A DNA stretch of 64,000 nt from Acidobacteriota bacterium (lineage in GTDB: Bacteria > Acidobacteriota > Blastocatellia > UBA7656): contig JBBPIG010000001.1 in assembly GCA_038040445.1 (NCBI GenBank), positions 407,126 to 471,125 of the forward strand. Direction: 5' to 3'. The notes beneath the pieces are model-generated. The model was not told the origin of the DNA. It did not search any database and was given only the letters and a program-made list of their open reading frames with translations. Position 1 is the stretch's first letter; each line of letters begins with the position of its first letter. Made by a program: the position numbers and the translations under genes. Positions 29,027 through 39,911 of this stretch are shown here, piece by piece.

Positions 29027-30814
29027 GTGGCTCTACCGCGTCATAAAATGTGGCCTTCTCCTACTGTTGATTTGCCTGTTTGCTATGAATGCCACTGCCG
29101 AGGTTCAAGAGTCTTGTTAGAAAACACCGCTGACGGCCCGCAGTTTCAAAACAGCCAGCGAGTTCCCGGTCCTTCTAAACGCCTCTTTGGAAGCTTAGTC
29201 GGCGCGTTGAAAAGCAACCTGGTTTCTGACGCATCGCCGCGCGGCCGGCGGGTCTTTGTCATCACTCAATGGGTGATCTCGCTTTCGTTGGTGATGTACG
29301 CGATATTCGCTCCTCACTCGATTGCGGTCACTCAGGGCGCTTATCTTCTCGGACTGGCAGCGTGGGGCGTTCAACTCTTCGCAACTCGAAACCTGAGCCA
29401 TAGGAGAACGCGCGTTGACATCGCGCTGTTTGGATTCTTCGCCTGCTGCGTTGTCTCGTCTTTCTTATCCTATGATCCACTGGTGAGCATCAAGGGTTTG
29501 AAGAGCCCGGCGTTCTTCCTGGCGTTCTATTTCGTAAGCAGCAACGTCAAGAGCATCCGCTTCGCCAGTTTCCTCGCTCTGGCAATGATAGTGTCGTGCC
29601 TGGTGAACGTCGGGTACAGCGGCGTGAAGCTGGGGATCGGGCGCGGGCTTCAAATCGACAGTATCCAACCTGATAGTCCGTTTGCCAATGAGACCATTAA
29701 CGTCGGAGACGTAATACTCGAGGCCGATGACAAGGCGATCAACTCGCAAGAGGATCTGACCCGGATCATTGACTCACAGCGCGGCCGCTTGCGAATCAAG
29801 CTTCAAAGAAAGGAAGCGATAGCCCAAACCGTGATTCCGAGACAAGCGATAAAGGAATCCAGGGGCGAGGGCTTCGAGCGGCTGGGTATAACCACGTCGC
29901 CCGGCAGAAATTTTCGCATCGCGGGATTCTACAGCCACTATGAGACTTACGCCGAAGTGCTCCAGCTCATCGCGGCGCTCGCCATAGGCCTGCTGATCGC
30001 AACTCCGAACAAGAGATCCGGAACGGCATTGTTTCTGAGCACTGTGATCCCGCTCCTTGCGGTCACTCTGATACTCACCTCAACGCGCGCGACACTGGCA
30101 GGATTGTCGATTGGCGTCGCAGTTATGGCGCTGGCTAGCAGCAGCCGTCGTGTTGTCGTTATGGCGATCGCGAGCGTTGTCATCATACTTCCATTGGCCC
30201 TCGTTGCTGTCGAGCATGCGCGGGGCATATCCGTGTTCGATCCGGAAGAAGGAAGCACCGCTTATAGGCTGGAAGTCTGGCGCGAAGCGTTTGGTATTAT
30301 CAAGGACAATCCACTGGTCGGCATAGGCAAGGGTAGCGAGGCTAAGCTCAAGGAGAGCCTGGGGCTCTACGACGACGGCAAATTGCCGCCAGGTCACTTT
30401 CACTCGACACCGGTTCAAATAGCGGTGTGGTGGGGTCTGCTTGGACTCATTCTCTATTGCGCAGTCATGACTATTTTTGTTCGGGAGCTTTGGCGGTTGA
30501 TCAAGATGGTCAAACGGGACTCGCGATGGCAACTCCGCGGAATCGCCTTGGGAGGACTAGGCGCCGTGGCGGCGTTCAGTGTAAGTTCGCTGGCGCACTT
30601 CAATTTTGGAGACGGGGAAGTTGTTATGGCATTCTGGCTCATGACAGGGCTTGCGTTTGCGGTTCGCCGGATTGCGCTCGAAGTGCGCGATGCCGAGACA
30701 CCAGTGCATACACCAGCGCCGTCACTAGCAGACAGTTCACAAAGAAGTCGAACCCGAGAACAAGCAGCAGCCTTTGAACCGAGCGTCCGGGCAGCAAGGG
30801 CAAAACAGAATTGA
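29027..30814 (+). CDS. O-antigen-ligase-type membrane protein with inserted PDZ domain
   Basis: About 595 aa; the GTG at 29027 is tentative and the first 70 residues are weakly supported. Around ten hydrophobic segments run from about 80 to 550. The large periplasmic loop before the last helices (RLEVWREAFGIIKDNPLVGIGKGS, with HFHSTPVQIAVWWG following) is the Wzy_C loop of O-antigen ligases and related exporters. Between helices, about residues 200-285 form a PDZ-like domain: IDSIQPDSPFANETINVGDVIL and QEDLTRIIDSQRGRLRIKLQR. This insertion is unusual for the family. The C-terminal tail overlaps the opposing glycosyltransferase gene by 176 bases. Confidence 0.8.
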   Translation: MALPRHKMWPSPTVDLPVCYECHCRGSRVLLENTADGPQFQNSQRVPGPSKRLFGSLVGALKSNLVSDASPRGRRVFVITQWVISLSLVMYAIFAPHSIAVTQGAYLLGLAAWGVQLFATRNLSHRRTRVDIALFGFFACCVVSSFLSYDPLVSIKGLKSPAFFLAFYFVSSNVKSIRFASFLALAMIVSCLVNVGYSGVKLGIGRGLQIDSIQPDSPFANETINVGDVILEADDKAINSQEDLTRIIDSQRGRLRIKLQRKEAIAQTVIPRQAIKESRGEGFERLGITTSPGRNFRIAGFYSHYETYAEVLQLIAALAIGLLIATPNKRSGTALFLSTVIPLLAVTLILTSTRATLAGLSIGVAVMALASSSRRVVVMAIASVVIILPLALVAVEHARGISVFDPEEGSTAYRLEVWREAFGIIKDNPLVGIGKGSEAKLKESLGLYDDGKLPPGHFHSTPVQIAVWWGLLGLILYCAVMTIFVRELWRLIKMVKRDSRWQLRGIALGGLGAVAAFSVSSLAHFNFGDGEVVMAFWLMTGLAFAVRRIALEVRDAETPVHTPAPSLADSSQRSRTREQAAAFEPSVRAARAKQN

Positions 30815-31943
30815 TGAACGCCACGACGAGCAGAGTCCGCATTGCGAATCTACCCTCGCGGGCATTGCGGTCAACGGCCAGGCTCGCCAGACATGCAACC
30901 GGCCAAAGCAACCCGATGAAATAGATCTTCGACGTAAGCGGACCTGCCAATAACATCAAGCAAATCATCACCGCTAATTCTTGAGATAAGAGTCCGCTTT
31001 GCATAGCCGGCTCAGAATCGTCACGATGGACGCCAGGAGTTGAAATACGCGATTCACGCCACACCAGAAGAAGAACCCCGGCGAATAATCCGGCGGCGAT
31101 GACCGCCCAGGCTACATCTACCTTGTCTCGAGGCAGTGATGCGAAGTTGATAGCCGGATACTGAGCGTCGAAATCCACTCTCTGCGAATAGTCCACTGTC
31201 GACAGATAACGCCGCAGTTGCCCCTTCAACGAAAGGTTTATCGGCCCGTTGTCCTCATGAAACTCCTGGCTGGCGACAACATGGTGGTACCAAGACCTGA
31301 GCAACTCAGTATTGCCACGAAAGCCAAAGTACAGGGATGGCGCTACATTGATCGCTATTAAGAACACGCCAACAGCGGCGAGCAGCTTCCAGCGCCGCTT
31401 CACGGCGAAGTACGGCAGGAGCAGGACCGGCGTTAGCTTGATGGTAATGGCCAATGCCATCAGCGCCGCGGCCGCCACATCCTTCTTCCGAAGAAAACAA
31501 TACAGCGACGCGAACAAGAAAAACGTTGCCAGCAAATGCGCATTCCCATAGTGCAGCGCCATCACAAAGTGCTGACTCACAGCGAGCGCCACGACGAGCC
31601 ATAACATCTTTGACAGGCGAAGCGCCGGAAACGTTCGGCTGATTATCAGGACGCACCCGGCGATCTCCAACACTGAAAGCACGTACCAGATGTACGCGGC
31701 GACTGAGTATGGAAGGACCCACAGAGGCGCCAGCGCGACGAGGAAAAACGGGGGATACCTGTAGTCCATCACCCGGCCCAGCGCGAAGTCGGGCGAGTAA
31801 AGATCGGCACGACCGTTAAGGAGTGAGCGGCCCGCAGCGTAGTAGACCGGAAAATCTATCAAGTTGCGCACAAAGAGAAAGCCTAGAAGCGCGATCACAA
31901 CTGAGCACGCCAGCATGAGAAGAATGCGTGAGGCCTTTGTCAT
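30639..31943 (-). CDS. GT87-like polyprenol-phosphate-mannose-dependent mannosyltransferase
   Basis: 434-aa polytopic membrane protein of the DUF2029/GT-C type. Roughly ten helices are visible, with the first extracytoplasmic loop carrying the family motif region FPVYYAAGRSLLNGRADLYSP, then DYRYPPFFLVALAPLW and KLTPVLLLPYFAVKRRWK. GT87 enzymes use a lipid-linked sugar to build glycans outside the membrane, which fits the adjacent O-antigen-ligase-like gene. The last helix lies inside the 176-base overlap with that gene, so the overlap involves real coding sequence on this strand. Confidence 0.85.
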   Translation of the reverse strand: MTKASRILLMLACSVVIALLGFLFVRNLIDFPVYYAAGRSLLNGRADLYSPDFALGRVMDYRYPPFFLVALAPLWVLPYSVAAYIWYVLSVLEIAGCVLIISRTFPALRLSKMLWLVVALAVSQHFVMALHYGNAHLLATFFLFASLYCFLRKKDVAAAALMALAITIKLTPVLLLPYFAVKRRWKLLAAVGVFLIAINVAPSLYFGFRGNTELLRSWYHHVVASQEFHEDNGPINLSLKGQLRRYLSTVDYSQRVDFDAQYPAINFASLPRDKVDVAWAVIAAGLFAGVLLLVWRESRISTPGVHRDDSEPAMQSGLLSQELAVMICLMLLAGPLTSKIYFIGLLWPVACLASLAVDRNAREGRFAMRTLLVVAFINSVLPLLPGRSVQRLLLVLGFDFFVNCLLVTALVYALVSRHRALRAQSGEPQTQALS

Positions 31944-32359: not shown

Positions 32360-32893
32360 TCAGTTTGCTTGTTTTCCAAACAAACGCATGAATGAGCGCA
32401 CGACCACCGCCCATAAGGCGCGTAGTGCGAGCGGGACCGCGCTTACAGCTTCGGTTTCAGTGCGAGGTTCTTCGACAGCTTGGGGTTCCTCGGTAACCTC
32501 GAGGTGTTGTTTGACACACGCCGCGAATTGACGGAACAGTTGTCTGGAGACCTCCTCGATCATTCCCCGTCCGAACTGAACGATCTTTCCGACGATGTCC
32601 ACTTCGGCTTCGACAATCACCTGCGAAGCTCCATTTGATAGAGATGTGATCTTGCTTAGCATCGTGAGCTTTGCCGAACCTCCCCCACTTGCTTCGCGGC
32701 CCTCACCGACAAGACGAACCACCCGAGCCTGTTCGTCCAGCTCGGTGAACTTCACAACGCCCTTGTATGACATCGCGACGGGGCCGACCTTCACTTTCAC
32801 AGCGCCAAGATATGATTGATCGTCGCGCGATTCCAGCAACTCAGCTCCTGGCAAACAGACCGCCACTCTCGCCGGGATGCACCGTGTTCGCAA
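32360..32893 (-). pseudogene. coxG: CO dehydrogenase subunit G (CoxG), 5'-truncated
   Basis: CoxG is an SRPBCC-type protein that helps anchor CO dehydrogenase to the membrane. The conserved body is present: PARVAVCLPGAELLE, YLGAVKVKVGPVAMSYKG and the C-terminal helical tail with a hydrophobic end (ALRALWAVVVRSFMRLFG). Roughly 25-30 N-terminal residues normally found before the CLPGAELL block are missing. Upstream of Pro-Ala-Arg the sequence becomes the antisense of coxS, at about 32,875. A TTG could start a shortened product, but loss of function is likely. It should be the head-to-head partner of coxS. Confidence 0.8.
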
Positions 32894-33177
32894 TCCAAGC
32901 CGACGGCCGTGAGCTGCTCACAGTCGAGGGGCTCGAGCAGGACGGCAAACTCCATCCTCTTCAAGAAGGATTCTTTCAAGAGCACGGTTTGCAGTGCGGC
33001 TTCTGCACGCCCGGGATGCTGATGACCGGCTATGCGTTTCTCAAGAGCAGTACCGATCCGACAGAAGACGAGATTCGCCACGCAATCTCCGGAAATCTTT
33101 GCCGATGTACCGGGTACGTCAACATCGTGAAGGCATATCAACACGCGGCGCAGAAGATGCGAGAAGGAGGTGCATAA
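32878..33177 (+). pseudogene. coxS: CO dehydrogenase small [2Fe-2S] subunit, 5'-truncated
   Basis: The recognisable protein starts at CTVFAIQADGRELLTVEGLE and continues with the second cluster motifs CGFCTPGM and CRCTGYVNIV to the stop at 33177. Missing is the whole N-terminal plant-ferredoxin-like domain (about 50 residues, with the CX4CX2C cluster), so one of the two [2Fe-2S] centres is absent. Any start codon would lie in sequence antisense to coxG. The stop overlaps the coxL start (TAATG), and AGGAGG lies just before it, so coxL translation can proceed. A deletion or an assembly error would explain the structure. Confidence 0.85.
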
Positions 33178-38960: not shown

Positions 38961-39911
38961 TTACCCTAACTTCCCGGTCAACTGTTTGTAGGTCAGTCTG
39001 CGGCCAACAATCAAGCGAGAGATGGCTAAGAATCGAATTTGGTCCGTCACCTTGCGATTGTTGAATCTGAATGATTGCTCATCGAGGTAGCGAAACAAAT
39101 GGAACGGCTCGATACTGATATACGTGCCCTTGATGCACCGCTTCAAAAGACACCAGAAGTTCTCAAGACCGTTTGTATGAATTTGACCATCAACATATTT
39201 TTCGGCATGGTCAACGACCTGATGAATGTATTCGTCCATTCCTTCGTAGGAACCAAGCGCGTCCGTGAATAGGAAGGAGCCTTGTTCAACGTCGTCTCTG
39301 ACTGCTTTCTGAATCGTTTCCTTGCGGCGGCTTGGAATTACCTTGCATCGCACGTCGCCGCCGTGTCTCTCAAGCAATCCCATGACCGCGACCTTACCGA
39401 CGAATCCGGTCTTGGTTCCGATCTTCTCCGCTCGCTTGTGCTTGTGCATGAATCTGGCCGCGCCGCCGATGAACGTCTCATCAGCTTCAACCTGTTGGCC
39501 TTCGCCGCCCAACTTCTCAAAGGTTCCCGTTTGCATCGCGAGTCTAATTCTGTGCATCAAGAACCAAGCGGACTTCTGAGTTATGCCAAGGCCGCGATGG
39601 ATTTCATAAGAGCTAATGCCGTTCTTTGCGCCGCCGATCATCCAGATAGCGGCCATCCACTTGTCGAGGCCGATGGGCGAATCTTCCATCAAGGTTCCGA
39701 GCTTGACCGTGAACATTTTCTTGCAGGCTTTGCACTGCCACGTCCGGCGGGTAGAAATGAACGTGTAGGCGTCACACGCGCAACGCGGGCACGTGATGCC
39801 GTTCGGCCATCGCAGAGTGATCATGAAGTTCAGCGCGTTGTCTGGATTCGCAAAGTAAACGATTGCTTGCTGAAGCGTTTTTGGGAAGGCATTCTGTGTC
39901 TGTGTTTCCAT
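38961..39911 (-). CDS. IS1595-family (ISXO2-like) transposase
   Basis: 316 aa. N-terminal zinc ribbon with CPRCACDAYTF and WQCKACKKMFTVKLGT, then the helix-turn-helix-like GISSYEIHRGLGITQKSAWFL. The catalytic core shows Asp in VEADETFIGG, Asp in FLFTDALGSYEGM and the Asn/Glu site HTNGLENFWCLLKR followed by YISIEPFHLFRYLDEQSFRFN. It is full length and looks intact. The start codon lies 49 bases from the right terminus of the element. Confidence 0.93.
   Translation of the reverse strand: METQTQNAFPKTLQQAIVYFANPDNALNFMITLRWPNGITCPRCACDAYTFISTRRTWQCKACKKMFTVKLGTLMEDSPIGLDKWMAAIWMIGGAKNGISSYEIHRGLGITQKSAWFLMHRIRLAMQTGTFEKLGGEGQQVEADETFIGGAARFMHKHKRAEKIGTKTGFVGKVAVMGLLERHGGDVRCKVIPSRRKETIQKAVRDDVEQGSFLFTDALGSYEGMDEYIHQVVDHAEKYVDGQIHTNGLENFWCLLKRCIKGTYISIEPFHLFRYLDEQSFRFNNRKVTDQIRFLAISRLIVGRRLTYKQLTGKLG

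Follow-up and report, generated by a model that had tools for sequence, protein, structure and literature searches.

A predicted WaaL-like Wzy_C ligase of the Blastocatellia with a permuted PDZ domain adjoining its first active-site motif

The stretch of DNA analysed here (the window, 64,000 nucleotides from a genome of the Blastocatellia) carries on its forward strand an open frame of 595 codons at 29027-30814, with no stop inside, and, converging on it, a GT87-type glycosyltransferase gene. The Blastocatellia are a class of the Acidobacteriota that live in soil and hot springs. A sequence-only reading had described the 595-residue product as an O-antigen-ligase-like membrane protein with a PDZ-like segment between two of its helices, and both parts of that description are borne out below. 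The features of the locus, with residues numbered from the listed start, are as follows.

29027..30814, + strand: ORF of the PDZ-inserted Wzy_C ligase, 595 aa, GTG start as listed
29246..29638, + strand: N-terminal membrane part, TM1-TM5 (residues 74-204), from the secondary structure of the model
29639..29902, + strand: predicted circularly permuted PDZ domain (residues 205-292) in the TM5-TM6 periplasmic loop, from Pfam, AlphaFold2 models of the whole protein and of the domain alone, and structural matches
29879..29890, + strand: RLGI (residues 285-288), putative carboxylate-binding loop of the PDZ domain, from conservation in 110 orthologues and the model
29915..29956, + strand: first active-site motif RIAGFYSHYETYAE (residues 297-310), from conservation
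30053..30460, + strand: Wzy_C domain (residues 343-478) with the large periplasmic loop 400-460, from Pfam and the match to 7tpg_B
30086..30088, + strand: R354, invariant, aligned with position 191 of Cupriavidus (C.) metallidurans WaaL
30266..30268, + strand: R414 (in YRLEVW), invariant, aligned with position 265 of C. metallidurans WaaL
30395..30403, + strand: H457-F-H459 (in GHFHS), both histidines invariant, aligned with HAHN of WaaL
30602..30619, + strand: NFGDGE (residues 526-531) in the periplasmic TM11-TM12 loop, from conservation; common to the PDZ-less relatives of the phylum
30639..31943, - strand: GT87-type glycosyltransferase gene, convergent, its 3' end overlapping the ligase gene by 176 nt

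The true start codon of the ligase probably lies downstream of 29027, because residues 1-41 are disordered by prediction (AlphaFold2 pLDDT <50) and most relatives start near residue 45-70. By Pfam, residues 343-478 match Wzy_C (PF04932; E 2.5e-20, 73.2 bits against a cut-off of 31.7) and residues 207-252 match PDZ_2 (E 2e-7, above the curated cut-off). A search for other Wzy_C proteins with the same insertion found it throughout the class, in 141 of 162 Blastocatellia genomes and eight of nine families (match E <= 1e-50). Among 38 aligned orthologues, Wzy_C was matched by all, PDZ_6 by 33 and PDZ_2 by 32 (Pfam, E <= 0.01), and the APHSIA motif between TM1 and TM2 is conserved. The sequence-only reading had allowed that the PDZ segment might be the product of a frameshift; this, like a fusion artefact, is ruled out, the whole architecture being a single open frame in the 38 orthologues and in a wider non-redundant set of 110. 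The HExxH zinc motif of site-2 proteases is absent from the 595-residue sequence on direct reading.

An AlphaFold2 model built on the 38-row orthologue alignment (mean pLDDT 87.7, pTM 0.84; 90-97 within the PDZ domain) predicts that the ORF encodes a 12-helix Wzy_C enzyme of the WaaL/PglL superfamily carrying a PDZ domain in the periplasmic loop between TM5 and TM6. The scaffold matches the cryo-EM structure of WaaL (7tpg_B) with Z 32.8 and an rmsd of 3.9 over 370 residues, followed by FtsW and RodA (Z 12-17). With the C. metallidurans WaaL (GT121; 7TPG/7TPJ) the predicted ligase shares the 12-helix GT-C scaffold, a large periplasmic loop near the C-terminus and a motif of two arginines and a histidine (PMC10920833). 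The two proteins are only 15-16% identical in structural alignments, and 7TPG has neither the 88-residue PDZ domain between helices 5 and 6 nor the acidic NFGDxE motif that the Blastocatellia ligase carries between TM11 and TM12.

The residues that serve catalysis in WaaL are retained. Nineteen positions were noted as invariant across the 38 orthologues (R297, T307, Y308, Q313, R354, R399, R414, P429, G432, G434, H457, H459, Q464, G470, F517, N526, G528, D529 and E531), and R297 is invariant in all 110 of the wider set. In a profile alignment R354, R414, H457 and H459 fall on R191, R265, H311 and H313 of the 7tpg sequence. Matching by motif, not by alignment, we take R354 to be the counterpart of R215, and R414 that of R288, in Escherichia coli WaaL. 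R215, R288 and H338 are functional residues of the E. coli enzyme and are conserved in PglL (PMC3643930); in WaaL the two arginines bind the phosphates of undecaprenyl pyrophosphate (Und-PP) and the histidine is proposed to activate the acceptor (PMC10920833). By alignment, H459 is the likely acceptor-activating base of the Blastocatellia ligase.

The PDZ fold was predicted both from the whole protein and from the segment folded alone, with the same elements in each case. The domain begins directly at the end of the TM5 helix, and its strands follow in the order 208-213, 229-233, 254-261, 264-271 and 288-292, so that the PDZ-like segment placed by the sequence-only reading at residues 200-285 is real as a domain, with its limits redrawn to residue 205 and about residue 292. 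Its structural matches included the first PDZ domain of RseP (Z 12.0/11.7) and that of GRASP65 (Z 11.6) for the whole model, with Z 11-12 for the domain alone; NCBIfam places the insert near the PDZ domains of HtrA, SpoIVB and RseP. Alignments with the RseP and GRASP55/65 domains span residues 205-297, the full length of the domain, whereas for most HtrA-type PDZ domains the alignment stops at residues 271-281 and leaves out the last strand. Because of this difference, and because strand 288-292 follows the LGI of residues 286-288, the model assigns the domain to the circularly permuted type of RseP and GRASP, in which the peptide-binding strand and the carboxylate loop lie at the C-terminal end. 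The PDZ domains of RseP are circularly permuted, according to the title of a work cited in PMC7728848. KLGIGRG, just after TM5, had been a candidate for an HtrA-type carboxylate loop and was rejected, since in the model, as in the structural alignments, the strand that would hold a peptide comes at the C-terminal end. Strand 288-292 ends five residues before R297, the start of the first active-site motif (R297-x-x-G-F-Y-x-H-Y-x-T-Y-A-E).

What the domain might do there depends on how its binding loop is read. Over the 110 orthologues the best-kept PDZ positions include G205 (110), G207 (105) and the GD motif, G227 (106) and D228 (109), together with the glycine and hydrophobic residues of the carboxylate loop: position 286 is hydrophobic in every sequence (Leu 101, Phe 7, Val 1, Ile 1) and Gly287 is kept in 102 and replaced in 8. 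Such an x-hydrophobic-Gly-hydrophobic loop fits a carboxylate-binding PDZ domain, and a purely structural cause can also account for it. Since the catalytic Arg/Arg/His set and the carboxylate-loop motif are both conserved, the catalytic part and the PDZ domain are probably both active. Peptide or protein binding, which the sequence-only reading had proposed, is thus plausible from alignment and model, with the domain on the periplasmic side, its loop sequence kept and the active site adjoining.

The main mechanistic rival to docking or gating by a bound peptide is a pure size filter, in which the PDZ domain, without a peptide ligand, makes the way into the active site narrower or steadies the loop, thereby selecting acceptors by size. 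The fold is that of RseP, whose PDZ tandem acts as a size-exclusion filter (PMC7728848), and apart from a handful of core positions the domain varies widely in sequence, as would suit a structural role. The domain as a whole is less conserved than the catalytic part (mean column identity 32%, against 41%), which, like the replacement of Gly287 in 8 of 110 sequences, counts against docking or gating by a peptide. The RseP filter, however, uses two PDZ domains where the ligase has one, and the carboxylate-loop residues are among those best kept; we consider a ligand-free gate unlikely. The likeness to RseP, a site-2 protease, lies in a permuted PDZ domain that a membrane enzyme carries on a periplasmic loop, close to its buried active site (PMC7728848). 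It ends there, RseP being a protease with PDZ-N and PDZ-C in tandem and the ligase a predicted glycosyltransferase with one PDZ domain, and the catalytic parts being unrelated.

To place the insertion within the phylum we used a sample of 396 genomes, 47 from the Blastocatellia and 349 from other Acidobacteriota classes. The profile search gave two peaks: 44 Blastocatellia genomes matched over the full length, their best matches reaching E 1e-125 or lower. Among the 349 genomes outside the class, the 83 with a match scored at most 178 bits, and all their matches began at profile position 230 or later, past the PDZ domain. The spacing between residues 176 and 297 tells the same two groups apart, at 116-143 residues in 38 of 38 class members against 29-51 in 20 full homologues from outside, which have no PDZ domain and share the motifs R...GxxxHYMT, LTxTRxxW, HLHN and EYNFGDSE. 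In the same loop, 38-54 residues were counted in seven Wzy_C paralogues from the window's own genome and in those taken from other members of the class. Of the eight Wzy_C proteins in the window's own genome, some have additional parts and are 600-770 residues long, and the PDZ domain is found only in the one described here.

In a maximum-likelihood tree computed without the PDZ columns, 41 PDZ-bearing proteins form one clade (bootstrap 91) whose branches largely follow the families, and the PDZ-less homologues of other Acidobacteriota classes, as a group, lie nearest to it. One clade, family-following branches and the absence of the PDZ domain from the homologues sampled outside the class together make a single insertion before the Blastocatellia diversified, with vertical inheritance since, the most likely history. 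In a scan of public contigs, 79 of the best 80 of 154 loci had titles naming Acidobacteriota lineages and one was titled only 'Bacterium HR08'; a search of plasmids for a PDZ-bearing homologue gave no match. Some Pyrinomonadaceae genera have a second PDZ-bearing copy. Two divergent second copies from this family (L179, G053:C11; L180, G016:C16) sit in the tree beside proteins of another family, f6, a position suggestive of either an ancient duplication or a transfer from one family to another.

This pattern of inheritance also bears on whether the enzyme is a ligase at all. Wzy_C does not tell polymerases from ligases, and with eight such proteins in one genome the product could be a Wzy-like polymerase or another Und-PP-glycan transferase that the PDZ domain holds in a synthesis complex. 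Against this, the GT-C scaffold and the Arg/Arg/His set are those of WaaL, which is also the only solved protein that the catalytic part matches by sequence, and vertical inheritance with near-universal presence in the class is unlike that of repeat-unit-specific polymerases. For a gene inherited vertically and mostly in single copy, a core envelope function is a better fit than the role of a strain-variable polymerase, and we regard a polymerase as very improbable.

The surroundings of the gene change from family to family, and no conserved partner gene was found among contexts that include an ECF sigma/anti-sigma pair, a DUF58 gene with a SurA-like PPIase, a sugar-transferase operon and nearby ParA/ParB genes. 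The GT87 gene, which the sequence-only reading had put forward for comparison across genomes, is kept next to the ligase only within the window's own family (seven genomes), where the 3' overlap is conserved too (176 nt at 30639-30814 in the window and about 176-197 nt in the own-family genomes checked); being convergent and limited to that family, it is ruled out as a general functional partner. In Pyrinomonas (L040) the ligase gene is preceded by genes for a GT2 protein, a GH88-like protein, DUF354, a Bac_transf sugar transferase and a methyltransferase, and DUF354 and Bac_transf lie upstream of it in two further genomes. In Chloracidobacterium-like genomes it stands beside the DUF58 and SurA-like PPIase genes. 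In family f6 an ECF sigma factor and a zf-HC2 anti-sigma factor precede the ligase on the same strand in eight of nine genomes, and the three genes are possibly an envelope-stress operon. At eight f6 loci (L053, L054, L055, L057, L058, L059, L062 and L067) the sigma/anti-sigma genes are followed by the ligase, sometimes with a DUF4097-like gene between.

Two further observations concern the window downstream of the ligase. A CoxG-like gene (- strand) and a small [2Fe-2S] CoxS-like gene (+ strand) lie head to head and overlap at 32360-33177; judging by their translations and by what we take to be the usual form of these families, the two appear to be truncated at the N-terminus, as though their starts had been lost in a rearrangement or at an assembly joint. 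An IS1595-type transposase gene, identified by sequence, lies at 38961-39911, about 8 kb downstream of the ligase.

As to the acceptor, LpxC was present in 19 of 19 genomes checked, so that a lipid A acceptor can be made. Three of these 19 lack the ligase: the nearly complete genomes G032, G039 and G057 of genus g11 in the Pyrinomonadaceae, natural knock-outs that keep LpxC and three or four other Wzy_C matches, from which it follows that the ligase is not essential for lipid A. Lipid A-core is our first choice of acceptor, with protein as the alternative.

Under the alternative, the enzyme would be a protein O-oligosaccharyltransferase. Its PDZ domain would hold the acceptor protein by the C-terminus or by an exposed strand and offer the Ser/Thr of that protein to the active site, in line with the earlier suggestion of glycan transfer to protein. 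PDZ domains bind peptides, the carboxylate loop is conserved and the PDZ strand leads into the active-site motif. PglL, PglS and TfpM belong to the same superfamily, and by spacing P429, G432, G434 and possibly E531 correspond to P313, G316, G318 and E404 of PglL (PMC3643930). Placed by position, the invariant E531 and D529 would occupy the site of PglL E404 and PglS E379, whose roles are described in PMC3643930 and PMC12800693, and C. metallidurans WaaL has no acid there. PglS, too, has an extra periplasmic domain over its cleft, although that domain is C-terminal and not a PDZ domain between TM5 and TM6 (PMC12800693).

Simple sequence comparison cannot split lipid from protein ligases in this superfamily, but the Pfam model PglL_A separates the PglL protein ligases from WaaL (PMC3643930). 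PglL_A (PF15864) was matched by none of the 38 orthologues (E <= 0.01), and a search of whole genomes with it gave no match, a result of little weight because the control genomes gave none either. NCBIfam puts the catalytic part near three families, with scores that fall far under their equivalog cut-offs, at 15.5 against 600 bits for TfpM (NF058641; E 0.0066), 49 against 188 for PEP_O_lig_1 (TIGR03097) and 51 against 366 for IctB (TIGR00947). The NFGDxE motif occurs in the PDZ-less relatives as well and hence is not tied to the PDZ domain, and the 30 neighbour proteins annotated, a part of all the neighbours, included no pilin and nothing else that would be an obvious acceptor. Transfer to protein is the less well supported part of the earlier suggestion, and we hold it to be rather improbable, if less so than a ligand-free gate.

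The reading we prefer is that of an Und-PP-glycan ligase in which a protein partner bound to the PDZ domain docks the acceptor or gates its entry, and here our confidence and our doubt are evenly balanced. The ligase would take a finished glycan from undecaprenyl pyrophosphate and join it to an acceptor on the periplasmic side; the donor is suggested by homology and by one gene context, beside a gene of the undecaprenyl-phosphate sugar transferase family. A PDZ domain of the RseP/GRASP type would have entered the TM5-TM6 loop in the ancestor of the Blastocatellia. It may bind a stretch of peptide in some periplasmic or membrane protein. This binding would bring the acceptor, or a partner carrying it, to the active site, or would open the way in for the acceptor, similar to the control that RseP exerts through its PDZ tandem over access to its buried active site. 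Because the domain is predicted to be permuted, its peptide-binding strand comes last and would run within about five residues into the active-site motif. Docking or gating by peptide appears the most likely role, since the binding loop is conserved and physically continuous with that motif. The models and alignments support the fold, position and permutation of the domain, the conservation of the catalytic and carboxylate-loop residues, and inheritance across the class.

Additions to such ligases have been described before, in WadA (PMC9938171) and in the C-terminal domain of PglS (PMC12800693). WadA of Brucella is likewise an O-antigen ligase with a domain added to its 12-helix part, but there the addition is an N-terminal cytoplasmic glycosyltransferase, not a periplasmic PDZ domain (PMC9938171). 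A search of the open-access literature by title and abstract found no paper on a PDZ domain in a Wzy_C enzyme or O-antigen ligase, and provisionally we regard the combination as unreported.

Acceptor choice and delivery are little understood in ligases of the WaaL/PglL type. In the Blastocatellia a predicted protein-binding domain stands a few residues from an active-site motif and has been kept, with its binding-loop motif, across the class, which suggests that sugar transfer by this ligase is steered or gated by protein. More tentatively, and with less than even confidence, a protein C-terminus on the permuted PDZ domain might switch or direct Und-PP-glycan transfer, coupling surface-glycan ligation (or protein glycosylation) to a protein signal class-wide; such a signal might be, for example, envelope-protein assembly or stress, which the ECF sigma/zinc-finger anti-sigma pair upstream in one family would fit. 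The ligase would also be a second case, after RseP, of a permuted PDZ domain guarding the active site of a membrane enzyme, and in an unrelated enzyme. As one small domain that can be removed or mutated, the PDZ domain would open the question of the acceptor to experiment through the lipopolysaccharide and glycoproteins of these bacteria.
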